Assembly: GCF_963675635.1 (NCBI RefSeq) | Contig: NZ_OY776488.1 | Location: 2,116,001-2,180,000, forward strand | DNA from: an uncultured Pseudodesulfovibrio sp. | GTDB lineage: Bacteria; Desulfobacterota; Desulfovibrionia; Desulfovibrionales; Desulfovibrionaceae | Reading direction: 5' to 3' | Length of the DNA stretch: 64,000 nt | Shown here: piece after piece, positions 6,801 through 46,327 of the stretch | Layout of the letters: each line of letters opens with the position of its first letter | How positions within the stretch are numbered: position 1 is the stretch's first letter | Program-made: the position numbers and the translations under genes | Notes under the pieces: model-generated | Database searches by the model: none | What the model saw: only the letters and a program-made list of their open reading frames with translations | What the model was told of the DNA's origin: nothing

Positions 6801-8198
6801 ATGAGAAAAATGCTTGTTATTACACGAGATGGAAGTCGCTCTGAAGCTGTCAGTGAATTGCTTGACCAGGATGATCACATTCTGACCAAGACCCGGTTGG
6901 AATCATCTGACCCGGGCGACGACAGGGAAGTGGATACGCTTTTCGTGGATGTCGATTCACTGCTTGGAAAAAGCAAATCCATTCAGGCTGCCCTTAAAGG
7001 ACTTTGGTCACACTATCCCTCTGCGGCCATTGTCGTCATGGCCGATGAGGAACAGACCAAGATCGCGGTCGACGCGGTAAAGGCAGGAGCATTTGACTAC
7101 CTGACCCACCCTATCGGCAAGGAAGAACTGGGGCTGGTCATGGCCAAAGTCCGAGAATCCGACGTCTTGCAGTCTGAGTTGGACTACTTGCGCGGACAGT
7201 TCTGGGATGAAGACTCACTTGACTACGTCGACACCCGAAGTCAGGCCATGCGCGATGTTTTCGTCAAAATTCGTCAGGTGGCAGGCACACGGACCACCGT
7301 CCTCCTCACAGGGGAAACAGGCACAGGCAAAAGCCTGATAGCGAAGCTTCTCCACAGGCACAGCAATCGAAAAGACATGCCATTCATCAGTGTGCATTGC
7401 GGAGCGATACCCGACTCTCTGGTGGAGAGTGAACTCTTCGGCCACGAAAAAGGCGCCTTCACCGGCGCGGTCCGACGCAAACTCGGCAAATTTGAGTTGG
7501 CACATGGAGGGACAATTTTTCTCGACGAGATCGGCACGGTCAGCCAATCAGTCCAGGTTAAACTTCTCAACGTCATACAGGAACGCATCATTCAGCGCGT
7601 AGGAGGCGAAAACGACATATCCGTTGATGTTCGTATTATCGCCGCGACCAATGAAGATATGAAGCAACTGTGCGACGAGGGCCGGTTCAGACGCGACCTC
7701 TTCTACAGACTCAATGTTTTCCCAATCTGCATTCCCCCTTTATGCGATAGGGTTGAAGATATTCCGCGGATATCAGAAAGCTTCATCAAGCAGTTCAACG
7801 GCCTTTTGAATACTGAGATAAAAGGCATACATCCTGAAGTACTTGATGCATTTCGAGAATACAGTTGGCCCGGAAATGTACGGGAACTCGAAAACATCAT
7901 TGAGCGGGCATGTATTCTGGAATCGGGTGACGTGCTCCTCCCGGGAAGCTTCCCGCCCGACATACTCACGACCCAGGGAGATGTCGTCACTTCACCCGTA
8001 AAAACGAGCCTGCCACTCAAGGAGGCCCGACAGATAGCCGTCGACAAATTTGAGAAGCAATACCTGACGAGCCTGCTTGAACAATGCAATGGAAGCATCA
8101 AGAAATCCGCTGAAAGAGCCGGGATCACCTCTCGCCAAGTGAATAAGCTCATGAATCGACACGGCCTCACAAGGAAACCATTCAAATCATCAAAGTAA
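6801..8198 (+). CDS. Sigma-54-dependent transcriptional activator with degenerate receiver
   Basis: A 465-residue enhancer-binding protein. Residues 1-125 form a receiver-like domain, but the usual switch lysine is replaced (FDYLTHP instead of FDYLTKP) and the acidic pocket is unclear (LFVDVDSL). This suggests control other than phosphorylation. The central AAA+ domain is complete: Walker A GETGTGKS near residue 171, the sigma-54 contact loop ELFGHEKGAFTGA near 210-222, Walker B GGTIFLDEIG and FRRDLFYRLNVF. A Fis-type helix-turn-helix closes the protein (KKSAERAGITSRQVNKLMN). The ATG at 6801 has AGGA upstream; the longer frame to 6747 lacks a site. Its likely target is the operon starting at 8479. 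Confidence 0.92.
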   Translation: MRKMLVITRDGSRSEAVSELLDQDDHILTKTRLESSDPGDDREVDTLFVDVDSLLGKSKSIQAALKGLWSHYPSAAIVVMADEEQTKIAVDAVKAGAFDYLTHPIGKEELGLVMAKVRESDVLQSELDYLRGQFWDEDSLDYVDTRSQAMRDVFVKIRQVAGTRTTVLLTGETGTGKSLIAKLLHRHSNRKDMPFISVHCGAIPDSLVESELFGHEKGAFTGAVRRKLGKFELAHGGTIFLDEIGTVSQSVQVKLLNVIQERIIQRVGGENDISVDVRIIAATNEDMKQLCDEGRFRRDLFYRLNVFPICIPPLCDRVEDIPRISESFIKQFNGLLNTEIKGIHPEVLDAFREYSWPGNVRELENIIERACILESGDVLLPGSFPPDILTTQGDVVTSPVKTSLPLKEARQIAVDKFEKQYLTSLLEQCNGSIKKSAERAGITSRQVNKLMNRHGLTRKPFKSSK

Positions 8199-8211
8199 GA
8201 ACTAATAGTTC
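8199..8211. promoter_or_regulatory. GAACT-N3-AGTTC palindrome, copy 1
   Basis: GAACT-AAT-AGTTC begins right after the activator stop codon. It shares its core and three-base spacing with the longer palindrome at 8350-8378. Their centres are 159 bp apart, about fifteen helical turns. I infer an upstream activating site for the neighbouring sigma-54 activator. Confidence 0.5.
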
Positions 8212-8307
8212 CGAACAGCCCGCCATTGAGAGAACAATTAATTCCTGTTTTTGCATAAGCAGTTAATAAATATAACTATTAATTTTACCATATTCAAGCA
8301 AACAGCT

Positions 8308-8319
8308 GTCACATGTGAC
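8308..8319. promoter_or_regulatory. Perfect 12-bp palindrome GTCACATGTGAC
   Basis: The palindrome lies between the two GAACT repeats. It contains TCAC/GTGA half-sites like those of CRP/FNR-family regulators but without their usual spacer, so the binding protein is unknown. Confidence 0.4.
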
Positions 8320-8349
8320 GCAAAGTCCTTTTATACATCCGTATTTGCC

Positions 8350-8378
8350 ATAAACAGGAACTAAAAGTTCCTGTTTAT
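8350..8378. promoter_or_regulatory. Long GAACT palindrome, copy 2 (probable enhancer site)
   Basis: A perfect 13-bp inverted repeat ATAAACAGGAACT / AGTTCCTGTTTAT separated by AAA. Its centre is 77 bp upstream of the sigma-54 -12 element at 8441, a normal distance for an activator site. Confidence 0.65.
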
Positions 8379-8427
8379 ACCTCTCTCCTTTACATCTTTT
8401 CCCTATAATTCAAGCCTCTTATCACCA

Positions 8428-8443
8428 TGGCACGGTGCATGCT
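8428..8443 (+). promoter_or_regulatory. Sigma-54 (RpoN) -24/-12 promoter
   Basis: TGGCACGGTGCATGCT matches the consensus TGGCACGRNNNTTGCW at every defined position except one, with correct spacing between GG (8429-8430) and GC (8441-8442). Transcription should begin near 8454. That is downstream of a possible ATG at 8449, so it supports the ATG at 8479 as the first start codon. The activator gene lies immediately upstream. Confidence 0.85.
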
Positions 8444-8478
8444 TATGGGTGTTTACCCCCACGAGGGCAGAAACAACC

Positions 8479-8736
8479 ATGAAAAAGGCAGTGAATACCA
8501 TATCCACCCGCAAGGAAACCATCCGGGGAGTTATCGTTCCGGAAGAATGGGACAACCAATTCCATGTGACGAAAATACTCATCGCATGCAAAGGCGAACG
8601 AGAAATTCGCGTTGAGAATCTGGATAGATTCCCTCACCTATTGGGCCTGTCCCAAAAGGAAACGCTTATCACCGGCACTGTCACGTACGATGGCACAATG
8701 GAATCCATTGTCATCGACAGTGTTGACACGCTGTAA
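8479..8736 (+). CDS. Small protein, paralogue of the 9860-10132 product
   Basis: First gene of the sigma-54 operon, 85 residues, unrecognised family. The start at 8479 has GAGGG eleven bases upstream and fits the mapped promoter; the longer frame from 8449 would start upstream of the transcript. The central pattern ETIRGVIVPEEWDN, then VTKILIACKGEREIRV and ITGTVTYDG, lines up with the protein encoded at 9860-10132. Alternating hydrophobic strands with glycine turns suggest a small beta-barrel of OB type; that is inference only. There is no signal peptide. Confidence 0.8.
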   Translation: MKKAVNTISTRKETIRGVIVPEEWDNQFHVTKILIACKGEREIRVENLDRFPHLLGLSQKETLITGTVTYDGTMESIVIDSVDTL

Positions 8737-8757
8737 ACCCTGAAGCGAACACATCGT

Positions 8758-9270
8758 ATGTATTCATTTTTCGGAATATTCATCACATCGGCTCTACTGC
8801 TCTGTGTATTCGCAGTGCAGGTCAACGCTGAGGAGCAACCGAATAATCCGGTTGAAGTCATGGGACTGGTCGTCGGCTCCTCAAATGGACCGACTCTCTA
8901 TGACGGGATACGGGATTATGTGCTCCTCGGCGTTGACAATATAGGCATTGAGGGACGTCTCTGCGTTATATTTGGAGACCTGATGCATGAAAAAAACGGG
9001 CCGACCATTGACGTTTTTACAGTCCATCTTGTTTCTGACAGGCAGCAGCAAGAAGACAGAAAGGCCCGGACGGATCTCCATGTCCGCTCTCGGACCACAC
9101 AACACCATCTAGGACATACACTCCTGTCCCCCTCCCGCACTCTGAAGTGCCGGAGATGGTTCAAGCCGTTGCCCAAACAGGGGAACAGCGGTGAATCCGT
9201 TGCGGCAGGACGTATCGGAAATATTTGGCACATCATGCCGTTCATTAAAACACCCAAAAAGCTGGCGTAG
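8758..9270 (+). CDS. Exported protein of unknown function
   Basis: A 170-residue product with a clear N-terminal signal peptide (MYSFFGIFITSALLLCVFAV, cleavage near VNAEE). Residues 30-95 contain beta-strand-like segments (VEVMGLVVGSSNG, YVLLGVDNIGIEGRLCVIFG, IDVFTVHLVSD). From about residue 100 the sequence turns basic and low in hydrophobic pattern (RKARTDLHVRSRTTQHH), unlike a folded domain. A frameshift near 9050-9070 or a disordered tail would both explain this. It follows the previous gene by 21 bases. Confidence 0.6.
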   Translation: MYSFFGIFITSALLLCVFAVQVNAEEQPNNPVEVMGLVVGSSNGPTLYDGIRDYVLLGVDNIGIEGRLCVIFGDLMHEKNGPTIDVFTVHLVSDRQQQEDRKARTDLHVRSRTTQHHLGHTLLSPSRTLKCRRWFKPLPKQGNSGESVAAGRIGNIWHIMPFIKTPKKLA

Positions 9271-9277
9271 GCACATT

Positions 9278-9844
9278 ATGGAAGCATCAGTGGTTGAGAA
9301 TGAAGCAGTGGCTGGCGACGTCTATGAAGTTCGCGTAATTTCAGGACTGTCCCCCGAAGATGTTGAAGGTCTTTTGAACATGGCTGAAACCAGCGGCCTA
9401 TTCAATCCCGATCAAATGACAGAAATCGAAGACATGTCATGGGGGTGTGCGTATCAGGGGGAAAGTGTTGCTTGCAGCTTTTTACAAGCTCTGGTTTCCA
9501 CACCTCAGGGAGAAAAGCCAATTGGTTTTCTCTGCTTCACGGAAATCCCTGAATGGCCGCAAAACTATGAACTTTTCGGCATAGCAGTCACACCGGAATA
9601 TCAGCGCCTCGGCATCGGGACCGCCCTGATGACGGGGATGAAGAACATTGTGGCTGGCCAGGACGGCAAGCGCATTTTTCTTGAGACCGGACAAAATCAT
9701 AAATGTGAAGAAATCCGTCGCTTTTACGAGGCAAACAACTATTCCATGGAACATCGGTTTTTCAAACAATTCATCCCGAAAGATGAAAATGTGGTCTATT
9801 GCCACACCATTGAATTCGATGAAGAAGATGCCAACTTCCAATAG
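9278..9844 (+). CDS. GNAT-family N-acetyltransferase
   Basis: A 188-residue cytoplasmic acetyltransferase. The acetyl-CoA binding motif is clear: ELFGIAVTPEYQRLGIGTAL, containing the Q/R-x-x-G-x-G/A signature. Later motifs include IFLETGQNHKCEEIRRFYEA and NNYSMEHRF. The substrate is unknown; polyamines, amino acids or ribosomal proteins are typical for the fold, and the polyamine transporter downstream makes polyamine acetylation worth considering. The start at 9278 is taken because the longer frame overlaps the previous gene. Confidence 0.88.
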   Translation: MEASVVENEAVAGDVYEVRVISGLSPEDVEGLLNMAETSGLFNPDQMTEIEDMSWGCAYQGESVACSFLQALVSTPQGEKPIGFLCFTEIPEWPQNYELFGIAVTPEYQRLGIGTALMTGMKNIVAGQDGKRIFLETGQNHKCEEIRRFYEANNYSMEHRFFKQFIPKDENVVYCHTIEFDEEDANFQ

Positions 9845-9859
9845 GAAAAGGGAGGGAAT

Positions 9860-10132
9860 ATGACGCTTGATATGTACGAAGACACTCTCTATGGGCAAGT
9901 TTTACCGCTGGACTGGGAGAATGACGTTGTCACCGGCATCATCTTGCTTGTCGACGGAGAAGAAGAGTTCATCGTGAAACCGGACAAGGTCGGAGGAAGA
10001 CTGGTTGACCATCTGGACAGGTGGATAACAGCCGAAGGCATTGTTGAAGAGACCGAAGACGAATCATACATCAAGATTCGCAATTTCAAAGTTGACGATG
10101 AATTTGATTATGCCGGTGACGACAACTGGTAA
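9860..10132 (+). CDS. Small acidic protein, paralogue of the 8479-8736 product
   Basis: A 90-residue protein with GGGAGG upstream of the ATG at 9860. Its segments DTLYGQVLPLDWEND, VTGIILLVDGEEEFIV and ITAEGIVEETEDESYIKI align through the whole length with the first protein of the operon. The C-terminus is strongly acidic (VDDEFDYAGDDNW). Function unknown. Two copies of one unrecognised fold in one operon suggest a heteromeric pair or two specialised binding proteins. Confidence 0.8.
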   Translation: MTLDMYEDTLYGQVLPLDWENDVVTGIILLVDGEEEFIVKPDKVGGRLVDHLDRWITAEGIVEETEDESYIKIRNFKVDDEFDYAGDDNW

Positions 10133-10202
10133 GCGGCAATCTCTTTCTTTGGCATTGAACTATTGAGACAGTGAAATCATATTTCATGAGAGCACACGGG
10201 CA

Positions 10203-10856
10203 ATGATACATCCCAACACAGAAGTACGCTTCGTTAATCCGACCATTGGACATGGAGTGTTTGCTACAGCCGATATCCCACGAGGCACCATTGTCTTCGT
10301 AAAGGACAGTCTGGACATTGAATTGACAGAAGCGGTCTTCAACGAACTGGACGAACACCACAAAGCGGTTGCTGATAAATACTCTTATATTGATGAAAAC
10401 GGCGTTCGTATCCTCAGCTGGGACAACGCCAAGTATGTCAATCACAAATGCGACTGCAACATCATCAGCACCGGGTACGGTTTTGAAATAGCCATTCGTG
10501 ACATATGGAAAAATGAAGAAATCTGTGATGACTACGGCCTGTTCAACCTTGAAGACAAGATACCACTGTCATGCGGATGCCGCAGATGCCGCCAGTGGCT
10601 TCGTCCAGATGACCTTGATAACCATTACGCCACCTGGGACGCTCAGATAGTAACTGCCCTTCAGGATATCACAAATGTTCAGCAGCCTTTGATGGAATAC
10701 ATGGATTCGAAAACAAAAAAACAACTGAGAGCATATCTTTGCGGCGAAGACCCGTACACTTCTGTGCTCACACTAAAATATCATAGAAACATTTCTGACA
10801 AATCAAATAGTATGAAGAATAGTACTCCCCCGACCTACCAAGGATACAATGGATAA
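10203..10856 (+). CDS. SET-domain protein (putative lysine methyltransferase)
   Basis: A 217-residue protein with the SET signatures: GHGVFATADIPRGTIVF at the N-terminus, the AdoMet-pocket motif YVNHKCDCN (eukaryotic form NHxCxPN) and EEICDDYGLF. Just after lies a post-SET-like cysteine group CGCRRCRQW. Bacterial SET proteins methylate protein lysines, but few substrates are known. The preceding 70-bp gap is the only sizeable one inside the operon. The protein overlaps the next gene by eight bases. Confidence 0.87.
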   Translation: MIHPNTEVRFVNPTIGHGVFATADIPRGTIVFVKDSLDIELTEAVFNELDEHHKAVADKYSYIDENGVRILSWDNAKYVNHKCDCNIISTGYGFEIAIRDIWKNEEICDDYGLFNLEDKIPLSCGCRRCRQWLRPDDLDNHYATWDAQIVTALQDITNVQQPLMEYMDSKTKKQLRAYLCGEDPYTSVLTLKYHRNISDKSNSMKNSTPPTYQGYNG

Positions 10857-11331
10857 TACTCTGAAACAACCCAAGTTCATTATCGGGTGGCGAGAGTGGA
10901 TCTCGTTGCCCGATTTTCATATTCCGGCCATAAAAGCAAAGATCGACACAGGAGCAAGAACTTCAGCCATTCACGCATTTCAAATTGAACCATTTGAAAA
11001 GGCGGGAGAACGCTATGTCCGATTCTGCATTCACCCACTTCAGGGACGTGACGATATTTCCATCCCCTGTGAGGCAAAGCTGATCGACCAGAGGAAAGTC
11101 ACGAATTCCGGTGGCACAACCCAAAAACGATATGTCATAAGCACCACCCTGGAACTTGCGGGGCGTCAATGGGAAATCGAACTGACCCTGACCAATCGCG
11201 ACCAAATGAAGTTCCGAATGCTGCTCGGTCGTTCTGCCATGAGAGGGCATCTCATTATCGACCCCCAACAATCGTATCAAGCCGGAAAAATGAAAGCGGA
11301 AACACTGTATAAGGACTCAGACAACTCATGA
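10849..11331 (+). CDS. Retropepsin-like ATP-dependent zinc protease homologue
   Basis: A 160-residue protein of the family annotated as ATP-dependent zinc protease or RimK/LysX-associated aspartyl protease. The catalytic-type motif [13 protein letters not shown] lies near residues 31-43, and [10 protein letters not shown] closes the domain. Members are nearly always encoded beside a RimK-type ligase, as here (4-bp overlap with the next gene), and may cleave or process its product. AAGGA precedes the ATG. Confidence 0.88.
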
Positions 11332-12233
11332 AAATTGCAATACTTTCGAGAAAAAAATCCCTGTATTCCACCAATGCCCTCGTGGAAGCAGGCAAAGCCA
11401 ATGGACACAACATGCGTGTGATCAATCCATTGCGCTGTTATATGAACATAGCTTCGCACAACCCGACCATCCACTACAAAGGCGAGGACTTATCTGACAT
11501 TGATGCGATCATCCCCCGCATCGGCTCATCAATCACATTTTACGGCACCGCAGTTGTTCGTCAATTCGAGATGATGAATATATACAACCTCAATGAATCC
11601 GTTGCCATCACCCGGTCGCGTGATAAATTGCGGAGTATGCAGCTTCTGTCGCGTAAAGGCATCGGCCTTCCCGTCACAGGATTTGCCAACTCCACGAAAT
11701 TCACCGACGACCTGATAGAGATGGTCGGAGGCGCTCCGCTGGTGGTAAAACTTCTCGAAGGGACTCAGGGCATCGGTGTTGTCCTGGCTGAAAACAACCA
11801 GGCGGCCAAAAGCGTCATCGAAGCCTTTCAGGGGGTCAAGGCCAACATTCTGGTTCAAGAATATATCAAGGAAGCAAAGGGCAAGGATCTCCGCTGCCTG
11901 GTCATTGGCGGCAAAGTCATCGCGACCATGCAGCGCAAAGCGCTTCCCGGAGAATTCCGCTCCAACCTGCATCGCGGCGGCTCCGGCTCCATAGCCAAGA
12001 TTACGCCGGAAGAACGATCGACCGCTGTCCGTGCAGCCAAGATCATGGGGCTCAATGTCTGCGGCGTCGACCTGCTCAGGACCAACCACGGCCCTGTTGT
12101 CATGGAAGTCAACTCTTCTCCGGGCCTTGAAGGCATCGAGAAAGTGACAGGAAAAAATCTTGCCGCCAAAATCATCGATTTCATCGAAAAGAATGCCAAA
12201 ATCGGTGCGAACAAGACCCGCGGCAAGGGCTAG
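11328..12233 (+). CDS. rimK: RimK-type ATP-grasp ligase
   Basis: Encodes 301 residues of the RimK family, which adds glutamate residues to a carboxyl group, classically the C-terminus of ribosomal protein S6. Visible features are the N-terminal [20 protein letters not shown] and [12 protein letters not shown], the ATP-grasp lysine region [35 protein letters not shown] and the metal site [14 protein letters not shown]. The start overlaps the protease stop as ATGA, implying translational coupling. With a protease, an acetyltransferase and a polyamine importer as partners, the acceptor here may not be S6. Confidence 0.93.
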
Positions 12234-12260
12234 ATATTACTTGAATTGACGGGGCGAATC

Positions 12261-13379
12261 ATGACTCATACTGTTTTAGACATACAGAACATCAGCAAAT
12301 CGTTTGATGGTGAAACGGCTCTGGACAACTTCTCTTTATCCATCAAAGACGGAGAATTCCTGACCCTGCTCGGCCCTTCCGGATGCGGCAAGACAACTGT
12401 CTTACGCATCATTGGTGGCTTCGAGGAGTGTGACAGTGGCGAAATACATATCGACGGGCATTCCGCCACAGGCGTTCCGCCTGAATCTCGGGCCGTAAAC
12501 ACTGTGTTTCAGAGTTACGCGCTGTTCCCGCATATGAATGTATATGACAACATTGCGTTCGGCCTGCGTATTGCCGGCAAGTCCGAGGCAGAGACAGCCA
12601 AGGCCGTACTGGAGGCGCTCCAGTTGGTTCGCCTGGAAGCGGTCAGGCATAAAATGCCGTTGGAACTCTCCGGAGGACAGCAGCAGCGAGTCGCCATTGC
12701 CCGCGCAATCGTCAATAAACCCCGAGTCCTGTTACTCGATGAACCGCTTTCGGCCCTCGACTACCGCCTACGCAGACAGATGCAAAAGGAGTTGAAGGAA
12801 CTTCAGCGAACTCTGGGCATCACCTTCATTCTGGTCACGCACGATCAGGAAGAAGCGTTTACCATGTCGGATCGCGTGGCAGTCATGGACCATGGCCGCA
12901 TCGCGCAGGTCGATTCGCCAAGAGCCATTTACGAAGAACCCGCAAATCTTTATGTCGCCGGATTTGTGGGCGAAATCAACGTACTTGACGGAGTCATCAC
13001 TGGACGGGATGCACAAAATTACACAGCTGAAGTAGACGGCGTTGCCGTTGTCGTCAAATCCAAGAAGGACTTCAATGAAGGAGATCTGATCCACCTGCTG
13101 CTGCGGCCTGAAGACTTTCGAGTTGAAATCATGCGAGATTTGGAAAACTCCCCAACTCTGGCCAAGAAGTTTGACAAGGCTCTTCTCCAAGGGACTGTGG
13201 AGCGCACGTACTACAAAGGCGCGACATACGATGTCGATATCATCCTGGATGACGGCAACCACATACTGGTCACCGAATTCTTCGATGAAGACAGCGAATC
13301 CCTGTATTTCAACACAGGGGATCGTGTCGCCGTCGGCTGGTTTGAAGGATGGGAGGTTGTGCTGCCCCATGAAGGATAA
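12261..13379 (+). CDS. potA: Spermidine/putrescine ABC transporter ATPase
   Basis: A 372-residue ABC ATPase that energises polyamine uptake. Walker A GPSGCGKTT, signature LSGGQQQRVAIARA, Walker B VLLLDEPLSALD and the switch histidine in LVTHDQEEA are intact. A C-terminal TOBE-type domain follows (LRPEDFRVE). The ATG at 12261 was preferred to a TTG five codons earlier. It lies 27 bases after rimK and overlaps potB by 11 bases. Confidence 0.95.
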   Translation: MTHTVLDIQNISKSFDGETALDNFSLSIKDGEFLTLLGPSGCGKTTVLRIIGGFEECDSGEIHIDGHSATGVPPESRAVNTVFQSYALFPHMNVYDNIAFGLRIAGKSEAETAKAVLEALQLVRLEAVRHKMPLELSGGQQQRVAIARAIVNKPRVLLLDEPLSALDYRLRRQMQKELKELQRTLGITFILVTHDQEEAFTMSDRVAVMDHGRIAQVDSPRAIYEEPANLYVAGFVGEINVLDGVITGRDAQNYTAEVDGVAVVVKSKKDFNEGDLIHLLLRPEDFRVEIMRDLENSPTLAKKFDKALLQGTVERTYYKGATYDVDIILDDGNHILVTEFFDEDSESLYFNTGDRVAVGWFEGWEVVLPHEG

Positions 13380-14223
13380 CCGCATCTTCAGACGTTTGGT
13401 CATCGGGGGAACACTGGCATGGATCGCCCTGTTCGGTGCAATCCCCACTTTCATGCTTGTGGGCGTCAGCTTCCTCAAGCGTCATCCTTCTGATCTGATC
13501 GAACAAACCTTCAACTTTGACAGTTATCTCCGGTTGTCTGATCCCGTCATCGGCTCCATGGTCATCAAATCTCTTGGGATGGCAGCCACAGCCACTTTCC
13601 TTTGCCTGCTCCTGGGTTATCCCTTTGCATACATCGTCGCCCGGGCACAAAAACGGCATGCGCGAAGAATGTTGCTGTTGGTCATGATACCATTTTGGAC
13701 CAACACGCTCATCCGTACCTATGCATTGGTGGCGGTACTCAAAGCCGACGGGATTCTCAACAAGATACTGCTATTTCTTGGTGTTATCGATGTCCCCCTC
13801 AAGTTAATGTATACGCAGACCGCCGTATTCATCGGGCTCCTCTACACCCTGCTCCCCTTCATGATCCTTCCTTTGTATGCAGCCATCGAAAAACTCGACC
13901 AGAAATTGCTTGAAGCATCCAGAGACCTTGGCGCCAGCCGGTGGAGCACGTTCAGAAAAATCACTATTCCGCTCACCATGCCCGGCATCGTCTCGGGCTG
14001 CATGCTCGTCTTTCTCCCTGCACTCGGCATGTTCTACATACCGGACATTCTGGGAGGCGCACGGACCATACTGCTTGGCAATTACATTCGGGACCAGTTC
14101 CTCACTTCACGAGACATCCCCATGGGGGCCGCCGCAAGCGTCGCGCTGACTCTGGTCATGAGCCTGATGCTGTTCATCTATTATCGGAGTCTCAAACGAT
14201 CCGGAAGGAAGATCCGGATATGA
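13369..14223 (+). CDS. potB: Spermidine/putrescine ABC transporter permease
   Basis: A 284-residue inner-membrane permease with about six transmembrane segments, starting MKDNRIFRRLVIGG. The EAA loop that docks PotA is present (LLEASRDLGASRWSTFRKIT, then PLTMPGI). The start at 13369 lies inside the end of potA; the open frame extends far upstream but only as a shadow of potA. It shares an ATGA overlap with potC. Confidence 0.95.
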   Translation: MKDNRIFRRLVIGGTLAWIALFGAIPTFMLVGVSFLKRHPSDLIEQTFNFDSYLRLSDPVIGSMVIKSLGMAATATFLCLLLGYPFAYIVARAQKRHARRMLLLVMIPFWTNTLIRTYALVAVLKADGILNKILLFLGVIDVPLKLMYTQTAVFIGLLYTLLPFMILPLYAAIEKLDQKLLEASRDLGASRWSTFRKITIPLTMPGIVSGCMLVFLPALGMFYIPDILGGARTILLGNYIRDQFLTSRDIPMGAAASVALTLVMSLMLFIYYRSLKRSGRKIRI

Positions 14224-14987
14224 TACGATTCATAAAAATGGGCTATGCGTGCCTCGTTTATCTTTTTCTCTACCTGCCGCTGGCTGTCATGGCGGTATAT
14301 TCTTTCAATGCGTCAAAATACTCCCTTGCATGGAAAGGGTTCACACTCAAATGGTACGGCAAGCTGCTCACCAACACGACCTTGATAGACGCCGCACTCC
14401 GCTCCCTGACCATTGCCCTGGTTTCAGCGACTATCGCCTGTATCATCGGCACTCTGATAGCCTTTATGCTGCATCAATACCGATTCCGTGGCCGAAAAAC
14501 CATCTTCGGCGGCGTATTCATTATGATGATGTCTCCGGACATCGTTATCGGCATATCACTACTGGTGCTGTTTCTCGGCGCAGGTTTGACTCTTGGATTC
14601 TGGACGCTTTTGATGGGTCACGTCACCCTGTGTGTCCCCTTTGTGGCAGCCACCGTCTATTCACGTTTCAAAGGATTCGATGCTTCGGTGGTCGAGGCTG
14701 CCAGAGATCTCGGAGCCAATGAGTATCAGGTCTTTCGACGTGTCGTTCTACCCATGGCCATGCCCGGTCTTGTGGCTGGCTGGCTGCTCAGTTTCACGTT
14801 GTCTCTTGATGATGTCATCATCAGTTTCTTTACAACCGGACCAACGTATGAAGTGCTTCCTCTGCGAATCTATTCAATGGTGCGCCTTGGAATAAAACCC
14901 GATGTCAACGCGCTCAGCGTAGTGATGATCCTTATAACCGTCGTCGCCGTCATCATATCCCGGCGACTCCTCAAGGAGAAGAGATGA
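14220..14987 (+). CDS. potC: Spermidine/putrescine ABC transporter permease
   Basis: A 255-residue inner-membrane permease with about six transmembrane helices (MIRFIKMGYACLVYLFLYLP at the start). The EAA motif VVEAARDLGANEYQVFRRVV and LPMAMPGLVAGW are present. It overlaps potB and potD by four bases each (ATGA), so all three are translationally coupled. Confidence 0.95.
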   Translation: MIRFIKMGYACLVYLFLYLPLAVMAVYSFNASKYSLAWKGFTLKWYGKLLTNTTLIDAALRSLTIALVSATIACIIGTLIAFMLHQYRFRGRKTIFGGVFIMMMSPDIVIGISLLVLFLGAGLTLGFWTLLMGHVTLCVPFVAATVYSRFKGFDASVVEAARDLGANEYQVFRRVVLPMAMPGLVAGWLLSFTLSLDDVIISFFTTGPTYEVLPLRIYSMVRLGIKPDVNALSVVMILITVVAVIISRRLLKEKR

Positions 14988-16024
14988 AAAAAGTATTAAT
15001 TGCCATCGCCGTCATTATCATGTGCGCCGCGTCTGCCCATGCCGGCAGCAACGAACTGTATCTCTACATTTGGTCAGAATACATCCCCGACGAGGTTCTT
15101 GAAGACTTCACAAAGGAGACCGGCATCACCGTCCACCTGTCCACATACGACAGCAATGAAGCCATGTACGCCAAGATCAAACTGGCTGGACAGGGATATG
15201 ATCTGATCGTCCCTTCATCAGACTATGTAGGTCTCATGCGTCGTCAGGAGATGCTGCTCCCACTGGACAAGGCAAAGCTGCCGAACCTCTCCAACCTGAC
15301 GCCCAGATTCGTCAACCAGTCCTTTGATCCGAACAATGAATACTCTGTGCCATACATGTGGGGCTCCACGGCCATTGCCATCAACACTGGCACCCTCGGG
15401 CACACGGCTGTCGAAAGCATAGCAGACCTCTGGAAACCGGAAATGGACGGCAGGCTCCTACTCCCCAACGAACCGCGGGAAGCCTTTGTCTTGGCCCTGA
15501 AGAAACTTGGATACTCAGTCAATGAAACCGACCCCGCTCATCTCGAAGAGGCATATCAGCAGTTGAAAATACTGATGCCGCGTGTCCGCGCCTTCGACTC
15601 CGACTCTCCCAAACAGGCATTGCTCTCGGGCGAAATATCCGTTGGAGTTGTCTGGAATGGCGAAGCATACATCGCCAACAGTGAAAACCCCGAAATTATA
15701 TATCTTTACCCACCTGAAGGCTTCAGCCTCTGGATGGATTCAATGTGCATTCCCAAAGGCGCAAAAAATATTGCCGAGGCTCACGTCTTCTTGAACTACC
15801 TGCTCCGCCCTGACGTGGCTGCCGTCATCAGCACGGAAATGGGATACTCGACTCCCAATGCCAAAGCCATTGAGCTCTTGCCGGAAGAAGTACGAAACAA
15901 TCCCATCGTCTACCCCACCGAAGCCGAGATCCAACGGGGAGAATTCGAAGATGATCTGGGGGAAGCCATGAAATTGTATGATGAATACTGGGTGAAACTG
16001 AAGACCGGCAACACCCAGCCTTAA
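14984..16024 (+). CDS. potD: Spermidine/putrescine periplasmic binding protein
   Basis: A 346-residue periplasmic binding protein with signal peptide MKKVLIAIAVIIMCAASAHA. The mature start LYLYIWSEYIPDEVLEDF and the later YDLIVPSSDYVGLMRRQEML and NSFDPNNEYSVPYMWG-type region are typical of PotD. It captures polyamines for PotABC. It is the last gene before the integrated element; the hairpin at 16052 follows the stop codon by 27 bases. Confidence 0.94.
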   Translation: MKKVLIAIAVIIMCAASAHAGSNELYLYIWSEYIPDEVLEDFTKETGITVHLSTYDSNEAMYAKIKLAGQGYDLIVPSSDYVGLMRRQEMLLPLDKAKLPNLSNLTPRFVNQSFDPNNEYSVPYMWGSTAIAINTGTLGHTAVESIADLWKPEMDGRLLLPNEPREAFVLALKKLGYSVNETDPAHLEEAYQQLKILMPRVRAFDSDSPKQALLSGEISVGVVWNGEAYIANSENPEIIYLYPPEGFSLWMDSMCIPKGAKNIAEAHVFLNYLLRPDVAAVISTEMGYSTPNAKAIELLPEEVRNNPIVYPTEAEIQRGEFEDDLGEAMKLYDEYWVKLKTGNTQP

Positions 16025-16044: not shown

Positions 16045-16081
16045 AACAAAAAGCGGCTTACGATTAACATCGTAAGCCGCT
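16045..16081 (-). terminator. Displaced tRNA-Leu terminator, also behind potD
   Basis: A perfect 12-bp stem AGCGGCTTACGA / TCGTAAGCCGCT (16052-16063 and 16070-16081). On the minus strand it is followed by TTTTTGTTTT. It is placed just as a terminator would be for a tRNA whose 3' end is the fragment at 16092, so it was probably the original tRNA-Leu terminator before insertion. On the plus strand it may also stop the pot transcript. Confidence 0.8.
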
Positions 16082-16091
16082 AATTTCATTC

Positions 16092-16147
16092 TGGTACAAG
16101 GGGGGGACTCGAACCCCCACAGCCGTGAAGCCGGCGGATTTTGAATC
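16092..16147 (-). pseudogene. 3' fragment of tRNA-Leu(CAA) at the left end of the element
   Basis: This 56-base piece covers the anticodon loop to CCA of the gene intact at 46241-46327. It has lost one base in the acceptor arm (CCTTGTACCA against CCTTGGTACCA) and has a different variable-loop sequence. The 18 bases GCCGGCGGATTTTGAATC at 16130-16147 are identical to 46280-46297 and form the attachment-site core. Confidence 0.9.
16130..16147. repeat. Left attachment-site core
   Basis: 18 bases identical to 46280-46297, covering the anticodon loop and part of the anticodon stem of tRNA-Leu. Sequence on both outer sides of the pair diverges. Confidence 0.85.
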
Positions 16148-16282: not shown

Positions 16283-16312
16283 TTGTTTTAAGATCAATCT
16301 TTGGAGGACGGG

Positions 16313-17524
16313 GTGAGTAAGAAGTGGATTCAATCTGACAAATTTCGCGGAATCAGATGGCAGCAACACCCGAAGCGGAAACATGGAGTCCGCTTCGATA
16401 GGCGTTTTGCCTATCGATTTATGTTTCAGGGCAAACGCTACGAAGGTTTTCTTGGCTGGGAGACAGAAGGTTGGCATGAGAAAGACGCATACTTAAAAAA
16501 AGAGTTCTATCTTGAAAACGCCAAGAATGGCCACGGACCGACCAGCCCTAAGAGAGAAGCACAACAATCCCGCGAAGCTGTCTTGGCTGAGAAACGTAAA
16601 GACATTTCATTTGAGGCCTATTTCAACAATCGATACCTGCCAGAAGCTCGCACACGGAAAAAAGAGCACACCATAAGAACCGAAAAGCAGCATCTCCGAG
16701 ACTGGCTCTCCCCTCAGTTGAATGAAAAGCCCATGCGCTCCATAAGCCCCGACGACATTGAACGAATCAAGCTTGCAGTTCTAGACAAAGGACGCACTCC
16801 CAGGACAGCACAGCATATCCTAGCCGTCTTTCGCCTCGTATGGAATCATGCAAGAAAGAGAGGTATCGTCGAGACAGACAGCCCTACCCGCGCTATTGAA
16901 ATCGGCAGAATTAACAATGAGCGCACCAGGTTTCTCAAGCCAGAAGAAGCGCAAAAGCTTTTAGACACGGTCAGGGCCCTCGACGAAAATGCCTACTCAT
17001 TAACTCTGGCCGCCCTATACACCGGCGCAAGACTAGGAGAGCTAACCGGCCTCACTTGGAGTGCAATCGATATGCAGGAAAAATCAATCACTCTTCTGCA
17101 CACGAAAACAGGCAAACCACGTATTTTGCCCATAGCTGGCGCGTTATATGAAATTATCGAGAACATTGGCGAAGGGACTCCTGAAGAACTTGTATTCACA
17201 AATTCGAAAAAGGCTAAATGGCGCGAGGCTCCGTGGGGCTTTCGACAGGCCATCAAGGATCTCAAGCTCAACGAAGGCCGAACAGACAAGCGAGAGTGGA
17301 TTTGCTTCCATAGCCTCCGACACACAGCTGCCTCTATGATGCTCGCTGCCGGTGTGGATATCCGTACCATCCAATCACACTTTGGCTGGTCTACGCTTGC
17401 TATGCTTCAACGCTATACTCATGCTCTGGATGAGTCGAAGCGAGCAGCGATTGACTCATTGGAAAGGGCCTTAGCCACCAAGCCAGGTGGTAAGATTCTT
17501 CCATTCAAGAAGACCGCAGAATAA
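16313..17524 (+). CDS. Site-specific tyrosine integrase
   Basis: A 403-residue recombinase that inserts and excises the element at tRNA-Leu. The N-terminal half has a phage-integrase SAM-like domain (ISPDDIERIKLAVLDKG). The C-terminal catalytic domain shows the first arginine in ALYTGARLGELTGLTW, HSLRHTAASMML and the distal region IQSHFGWSTLAMLQRYTH, whose tyrosine is the nucleophile. The GTG at 16313 was chosen because GGAGG lies five bases upstream; a TTG at 16301 overlaps that site. It is the first gene inside the left attachment site. Confidence 0.95.
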   Translation: MSKKWIQSDKFRGIRWQQHPKRKHGVRFDRRFAYRFMFQGKRYEGFLGWETEGWHEKDAYLKKEFYLENAKNGHGPTSPKREAQQSREAVLAEKRKDISFEAYFNNRYLPEARTRKKEHTIRTEKQHLRDWLSPQLNEKPMRSISPDDIERIKLAVLDKGRTPRTAQHILAVFRLVWNHARKRGIVETDSPTRAIEIGRINNERTRFLKPEEAQKLLDTVRALDENAYSLTLAALYTGARLGELTGLTWSAIDMQEKSITLLHTKTGKPRILPIAGALYEIIENIGEGTPEELVFTNSKKAKWREAPWGFRQAIKDLKLNEGRTDKREWICFHSLRHTAASMMLAAGVDIRTIQSHFGWSTLAMLQRYTHALDESKRAAIDSLERALATKPGGKILPFKKTAE

Positions 17525-46240: not shown

Positions 46241-46327
46241 TGGTACCAAGGGGGGGACTCGAACCCCCACAGCGTTACCGCCGGCGGATTTTGAATCCGC
46301 TGCGTCTACCAATTCCGCCACCCTGGC
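46241..46327 (-). tRNA. tRNA-Leu (anticodon CAA), integration target
   Basis: An 87-base tRNA with encoded CCA. The acceptor GCCAGGG pairs with CCTTGGT (two G-U pairs). The anticodon stem GCGGA/TCCGC encloses TTCAAAA, the long variable arm is CGGC-GGTAAC-GCTG, and the T-arm is GGGGG-TTCGAGT-CCCCC. The 3' half from the anticodon loop was supplied by the element. Confidence 0.96.
46280..46297. repeat. Right attachment-site core
   Basis: 18 bases GCCGGCGGATTTTGAATC identical to 16130-16147, within the anticodon arm of the intact tRNA-Leu. Confidence 0.85.

Follow-up and report, generated by a model that had tools for sequence, protein, structure and literature searches.

The question raised by the locus described here is why a polyamine importer, a RimK-type glutamate ligase with its protease partner, an acetyltransferase and a SET-domain protein should be encoded together in an uncultured Pseudodesulfovibrio sp., a marine sulfate reducer. 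The genes form an operon at positions 8479–16024 of a 64,000-nucleotide (nt) stretch of DNA (the window), which belongs to a genome of one contig, 3.52 Mb. The answer proposed is that the operon belongs to a conserved regulon of the phylum that would supply small cationic amines, by import or by synthesis, and conjugate them with acyl and glutamyl groups. This is a tentative reading, a little short of an even chance; the regulation and modularity are read from sequence comparisons, and the chemistry is deduced from the genes that recur together.

The gene for a sigma-54 enhancer-binding protein (EBP) sits just upstream of the operon, and two palindromes fall between this gene and A1, the first gene of the operon. 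Neither the EBP gene nor the palindromes appear in the first-pass annotation of this DNA. The regulatory features are:

6801–8198, + strand: EBP, 465 amino acids (aa), with an atypical receiver, an AAA+ domain carrying GAFTGA and a Fis-type helix-turn-helix
8198–8212, no strand: distal palindrome AGAACT-AAT-AGTTCC, overlapping the EBP stop codon
8350–8378, no strand: proximal palindrome ATAAACAGGAACT-AAA-AGTTCCTGTTTAT, with 13-bp arms
8428–8443, + strand: sigma-54 promoter TGGCACGGTGCATGCT, from motif match and conservation

The start of the EBP at 6801 is placed from the length of its orthologues. Pfam gives Sigma54_activat at 3.7e-69, and two matches below the cut-off, HTH_8 (0.001; 19.2 vs 22) and Response_reg (0.0013). 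Among 72 aligned rows the loop reads GAFTGA in 60, GSFTGA in 11 and GAFTSA in one. At the positions that we take to be the canonical Asp and Lys of a receiver, the acceptor Asp is kept in 67/68 rows but the Lys before Pro has given way to Y, H, R or L in 70/70 rows with letters. Because the receiver keeps the Asp but not the Lys, the input to the EBP is probably unusual, and switching of the receiver in the standard way seems unlikely.

The promoter reads TGGCAC-N5-ATGCT, with one mismatch to TGGCAC-N5-TTGCW (-24/-12, GG-N10-GC type). It had been called near-perfect, but taken alone the motif is no better than chance: the window has one match against 2.58 expected in shuffles, and significance of the promoter on its own merit was therefore rejected. 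Sigma-70-like matches between 8100 and 16200 are likewise at chance level (8 found, 8.1 expected). The sigma-54 promoter is convincing because TGGCA and TGCT are invariant in 10/10 aligned operon loci (three of them, L032–L034, nearly identical) and because a palindrome stands at a fixed distance from it in relatives. The 15-bp core of the proximal palindrome, 8357–8371, is the sole perfect GGAACTN3AGTTCC in the genome; when one mismatch is allowed there are eight genomic sites, two of them at the operon. The GAAC-N5-GTTC of the proximal palindrome begins 70 bp before the -24 element.

The comparison at class level used 49 EBP loci, a set from which four repeats had been removed but in which near-identical loci were retained. 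GAAC-N5-GTTC is exact in 44 of them and has at most one mismatch in its arms in all 49, and a promoter match is found in 41. Each of these 41 has a palindrome, with one arm mismatch or none, that begins 64–70 bp ahead of the -24 element. Among random windows drawn from these loci, 149 of 4000 contain the exact palindrome. Outside the class, the exact palindrome lies within 450 nt of the EBP gene in 12/23 loci, against 304/4000 controls. Promoter conservation and palindrome spacing across relatives thus support the sigma-54 control that had been proposed. The EBP would act through one or two GAAC-N5-GTTC sites, the nearer at 64–70 bp from the promoter; it is the pairing of site and EBP that these counts support, and binding is the likely reason for it.

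The operon and its presumed end are made up of the following:

8479–8736, + strand: A1, small protein of 85 aa, paralogue of A2; no Pfam match, related to A2 by hhalign
8758–9270, + strand: X, N-terminal hydrophobic (signal-like) segment and OB-like domain; from alignment and model
9278–9844, + strand: GNAT acetyltransferase, 188 aa; PF00583, 1.1e-12
9860–10132, + strand: A2, OB-like, 90 aa, conserved acidic C-terminus ending in Trp; from alignment and model
10203–10856, + strand: SET-domain protein, 217 aa; PF00856, 1.2e-11
10849–11331, + strand: RimB-type retropepsin-like protease, 160 aa, DTG motif; PF05618, 7.4e-39
11328–12233, + strand: RimK ATP-grasp alpha-L-glutamate ligase, 301 aa; NF007764, 459.3 bits, cut-off 331
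12261–13379, + strand: PotA, ABC transporter ATPase; NF006987, 531.9 bits, cut-off 482
13369–14223, + strand: PotB, permease; open reading frame whose name rests on its position among these genes and on orthologues in relatives rather than on a family model
14220–14987, + strand: PotC, permease; named in the same way as PotB
14984–16024, + strand: PotD-like polyamine-binding protein; solved spermidine/putrescine-binding proteins, 1e-108 to 1e-104
16052–16081, no strand assigned: hairpin, possible terminator, -22 kcal/mol

The eleven same-strand genes of the first-pass annotation are borne out as open reading frames, and its description of the junctions (five overlaps, and gaps of 27 bp or less except one of 70 bp) proved exact on a recount, the successive values being 21, 7, 15, 70, -8, -4, 27, -11, -4 and -4 bp. 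Pfam and NCBIfam back the GNAT, SET, RimB-type protease, RimK, PotA and PotD-like identities. The hairpin may be the end of the operon; its T-tail is weak on the + strand.

Conservation of gene order in relatives, which had been set as a test of the operon, was found in a gene-neighbourhood comparison. A search with A2 gives matches in 69/297 class genomes and RimK is found at 1e-80 in 36/297, so the EBP-A1-GNAT-A2 core is wider than RimBK. The fetched genus loci number 28 (G008, seen only at a contig end, is left out; L155 is broken and PotD of L035 looks frame-shifted). By hand count, 18 of these have PotABCD, 21 have SET, 18 have an acyltransferase and 10 have RimB-RimK, and the combinations are many. 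PotABCD is found without RimBK in 10 genus loci and RimBK without PotABCD in two; PotABCD is present in three loci of another genus too (L123–L125), and one of the three has RimBK as well. Since RimK and PotABCD each occur without the other, a single pathway dependent on both was rejected, and the idea of one pathway requiring all parts is likewise weakened by the many combinations. It appears well supported, as far as gene neighbourhoods can tell, that the conserved core consists of the EBP, small OB-like proteins (A1/A2 and the secreted-looking X) and the GNAT protein in most class-level loci fetched, and that RimB-RimK, SET, the acyltransferase and PotABCD have been gained and lost independently. 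In L155 (G021), the broken locus, A2 lies beside what seem to be remaining pieces of the EBP and GNAT genes. In L131, EBP-A1 is accompanied by X-like and A2-like genes but by none of the enzymes; the genes behind these are STAS and lipid-transport-like ones, named by eye.

Relatives of the EBP lie beside other genes of amine metabolism. A KamA-family aminomutase gene adjoins a gene for a D-Ala-D-Ala-ligase-like ATP-grasp enzyme in 12 class-level genomes, and in 10 of these an EBP of 48–61% identity is alongside; of the remaining two, L166 has a 70% identical EBP at a greater distance and L160 showed none. Several of the class-level KamA loci also hold A1, X-like, GNAT and A2 genes, and in L128 KamA, the ATP-grasp enzyme, A2 and PotABCD are united behind one EBP. 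A1-like proteins are found in 31 of 394 other genomes of the phylum, and 32 regions from 29 of these 31 were sampled. A related EBP (43–56% identical, at the threshold used) is present in 23 of the 32 regions, KamA with an ATP-grasp gene in 10, and S-adenosylmethionine decarboxylase (SpeD) in five, three of them with agmatinase-type SpeB. These are raw counts, from neighbours found by following A1 and not by function; a weak SpeD match 6 kb off in L209 is left out. Three SpeD and one SpeB were checked against Pfam, the others resting on similarity. SpeD follows the EBP gene on the same strand in L183 and L202. In L181 and L190 a single gene run takes in the spermidine-synthesis genes (SpeD among them), OB-like genes and an HU/IHF-type DNA-binding gene. 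HU/IHF-type proteins often bend sigma-54 promoters.

The occurrence of EBP relatives beside polyamine or beta-lysine-type genes in the phylum points to an undescribed amine-handling regulon. We infer that its substrates would be small cationic amines because the Pot importer, SpeD/SpeB and KamA recur with ATP-grasp ligases and GNAT. The amine would be supplied by PotABCD import in the operon of the window, elsewhere by KamA-like and ATP-grasp enzymes making beta-lysine or a similar amino acid, or by SpeD/SpeB making spermidine. It would then be modified by GNAT acetylation and by ATP-grasp amide bond formation. In the window version, RimK may attach glutamate through an alpha linkage to a small amine or a peptide, or may make free poly-alpha-glutamate, and RimB would stimulate RimK and trim the product; this role of RimK is a step further from the gene neighbourhoods. 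The product of the regulon is probably a stress protectant. The modification of polyamines or peptides by acetyl or glutamyl transfer, put forward in the first-pass annotation, thus stays the favoured chemistry and gains from the beta-lysine-type and spermidine genes beside related EBPs.

PotABCD resembles the spermidine/putrescine importer in its A-B-C-D order, in PotA above the cut-off, in the sequence family of PotD and in 9 of 13 ligand contacts, on a contact list that we take to be that of E. coli PotD. The identical contacts are W34, Y37, S83, E171, S211, W229, W255, D257 and Y293; the changes are S for T35, D for Y85, E for D168 and E for Q327. The system differs from the known importer in that the PotD of the window falls below the NCBIfam PotD equivalog cut-off (387.2 vs 582), in the Asp at Tyr85, which is found in 23/23 linked PotD rows (one row a repeat), and in the adjoining EBP gene.

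A1 and A2, described earlier as unrecognised paralogues, have no Pfam or NCBIfam match above cut-off and are distant paralogues of each other (hhalign probability 96.2%, E-value 2.7e-9 over 76 columns). The A2 model (pLDDT 78.8) has five strands and one helix, and its Foldseek matches are mostly OB folds, weak, with a best E-value of 6e-3. X has no match in Pfam and shows no relation to A1 by hhalign (1.5%), and so it is named OB-like from its model only (pLDDT 82.7; Foldseek matches mostly OB folds, weak, best E-value 9e-4). Its signal segment was judged by eye, and its C-terminal part is not conserved in the alignment. The last residue of GNAT is Gln in 9/9 aligned rows. In A2 the acidic end ahead of Trp is invariant in nine aligned rows, one of which has an extra Gln after Trp. 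A second A2 copy of the same genome, at G000:C1:1863830-1864099 (L138:6001-6273), lies behind DUF1611 and ornithine-racemase-like genes; the latter owes its name to the top-scoring NCBIfam model, whose cut-off it does not reach. A DUF1611 gene is likewise found near the EBP-OB locus in L187. The SET protein matches histone methyltransferase SET domains at 1.7e-7. It was rejected as a marker of the system: outside the genus, one contig scan gave only two loci, both in metagenome-assembled genomes, labelled Flavobacterium and Flavobacteriales, and without the other genes.

RimK matches the solved alpha-L-glutamate ligase 7qyr at 1.2e-138, presumably a Pseudomonas enzyme. For RimB the best NCBIfam family is RimB (NF052261), at 140.7 bits against a cut-off of 200, and the Pfam cut-off is passed. 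At an E-value of 1e-30 or better, RimK is found in 21/36 genus genomes (own included) and in 1/24 genomes elsewhere in the order, at 35% identity. The operon with RimBK is present in 10/36 genus genomes (own included) and a RimB-RimK pair elsewhere in 15/36, four of which also have the RimBK operon. The genome studied here is one with such a second pair, missed earlier, and its second RimK is 80% identical. In the second kind of pair (L040–L054), an AstE/AspA-family gene directly follows RimK in 12/15 and a citrate-transporter-type gene directly precedes RimB in 6/15; these neighbours suggest small-molecule glutamylation by the second-kind pairs. The ten operon RimKs and the G138 RimK form one clade (99/99) in a tree, to which the remaining RimKs of these genomes do not belong; the tree is rooted for drawing only, its outgroup row is very long, some of its forks are open, and the order of its deep lineages is not settled. 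L158 carries a divergent RimB-RimK pair on the same strand behind EBP-GNAT-A2, outside the operon clade, and L159–L162 and L137 have other pairs close to KamA or EBP genes but not within the EBP gene run. RimBK thus seems to have been recruited to the EBP neighbourhood more than once, L158 being the sole clear second same-strand case.

Several other explanations can be given for the gene set. The similarity to Pseudomonas RimABK would suggest a tuning of the ribosome, in which RimK glutamylates S6, RimB trims, SET and GNAT act on further ribosomal proteins and translation is adjusted through imported polyamines. The likeness is real in several respects: a RimB-RimK gene pair, overlapping in the window, a RimK of the same curated family, well above the S6 ligase cut-off and close to the solved ligase, a RimB that retains DTG and a weak RimI match of GNAT (6.2e-10, below cut-off). 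However, the operon differs in its sigma-54/EBP control and in being joined to PotABCD, GNAT, SET and OB-like proteins, and no RimA phosphodiesterase domain was found by Pfam among the eight operon-region proteins scanned. P. aeruginosa has rimBK operons without rimA as well, according to a passage of PMC10092738. The S6 of this genome has 96 aa, ends in KLAA and is without a C-terminal tail, and the same end or a close variant is found in 31/31 genus genomes recovered, with or without rimK (of the 36, two gave no S6 match and three were not parsed). Solved S6 chains of 135 and 139 residues, which we take to be those of E. coli and Pseudomonas, extend some 45–50 residues beyond the aligned part, and many other solved S6 are as short as the one here. 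Modification of S6 by RimK in the usual way is therefore unlikely, S6 as the target from the family name of RimK alone was rejected, and the ribosomal explanation as a whole appears improbable. PMC11957791 reports that Pseudomonas RimK yields free poly-alpha-L-glutamate in vivo, stimulated by RimB; it also points out that glutamate is not the last residue in some RpsF proteins and that other RimK roles are possible. A protein of the operon itself could instead be the acceptor of a glutamate tail, either A2 with its acidic C-terminus and final Trp or GNAT with its invariant C-terminal Gln. The conservation of both C-termini near the last residue in the nine rows would fit such a role, but A2 and GNAT are also present in genus genomes without a rimK match, e.g. 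G003, G004, G016, G017, G018, G022 and G026, and this explanation is very doubtful.

The main rival to an amine regulon is co-regulation without a shared substrate. The EBP would respond to a single stress, and each cargo would have a task of its own: polyamine uptake for PotABCD, poly-glutamate formation or protein glutamylation for RimB-RimK, protein methylation for SET, acetylation for GNAT and surface acylation for the acyltransferase. This is possible as a whole, though on the doubtful side. It would account for the wide variation of cargo among the 28 genus loci, for the EBP-OB module of L131 with other genes behind it and none of these enzymes, and for GroESL, found outside the class within the OB-KamA gene run of L180, whose EBP is truncated at the edge of the fetched stretch, and close to the EBP-OB module of L185. 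Pure co-regulation does not predict that an amine source, an amide ligase and GNAT recur beside EBPs only ~50% identical. Several findings weigh against the amine regulon. The cargo genes have come and gone independently, a pattern equally compatible with co-regulation in which no substrate is shared, and GroESL in the L180 run suits a general stress regulon. A promoter match is missing in 8/49 class-level loci and the exact palindrome in 11/23 EBP loci of the phylum; 17 of the 32 phylum regions have neither KamA with ATP-grasp nor a counted SpeD. The SpeD-SpeB pair of L185 is divergent from the EBP gene, and no EBP is found on the short contig of L190. The nearest solved structure to GNAT, 2r7h (6.3e-12), is merely a putative D-alanine acetyltransferase. 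KamA is below the NCBIfam cut-off for lysine 2,3-aminomutase (AblA; 475.4 vs 525.4), and its substrate may thus not be lysine.

The amine regulon has some features in common with known systems and differs from them in others. The related EBP loci pair a KamA-family aminomutase with GNAT, as does the ablA-ablB pathway for N-epsilon-acetyl-beta-lysine outlined in PMC1224877, but have D-Ala-D-Ala-ligase-like ATP-grasp enzymes between. In the operon of the window, no KamA was found among the ORFs and scanned proteins. The sigma-54/EBP regulons of Desulfovibrio vulgaris described in the main text of Kazakov et al. (2015, PMC4641369) are likewise small, with an EBP gene adjoining the target operon, a -24/-12 promoter and, for some, palindromic sites. 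However, that main text has no mention of spermidine, RimK, glutamate ligase, SET domain, aminomutase, ATP-grasp or acetyltransferase. Literature searches for the gene set gave no description of it, in line with the earlier remark that no pathway with this set was known; for the D. vulgaris survey this negative applies to the main text.

A 69-bp stretch at 16080–16147, directly behind the operon, is 90% identical to part of the tRNA-Leu at 46241–46327 and its flank, and is followed by an integrase-like open reading frame at 16301–17524, named by eye. The two sites are probably the ends of a 30-kb integrated element abutting the operon.

If the amine-handling regulon is carried to its fullest form, one EBP family would join amine supply across the phylum (import, spermidine or beta-lysine-type synthesis) to acetylated and glutamylated or peptidyl conjugates, as new amine-peptide protectants. 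RimK and RimB would have been recruited from ribosome modification for a glutamyl-polyamine or for poly-glutamate with polyamine, and A1, X and A2 would sense or carry the product. This fuller form is unlikely as it stands. The findings put forward a function of RimK and RimB, open to testing, for bacteria with a tailless S6; their role there is a question left open in the RimB paper (PMC11957791). One EBP family, one DNA motif and one set of OB-like proteins appear to tie together polyamine import, spermidine synthesis and beta-lysine-type ligation across the phylum, and with these named the product could be searched for directly by metabolomics of an EBP mutant.

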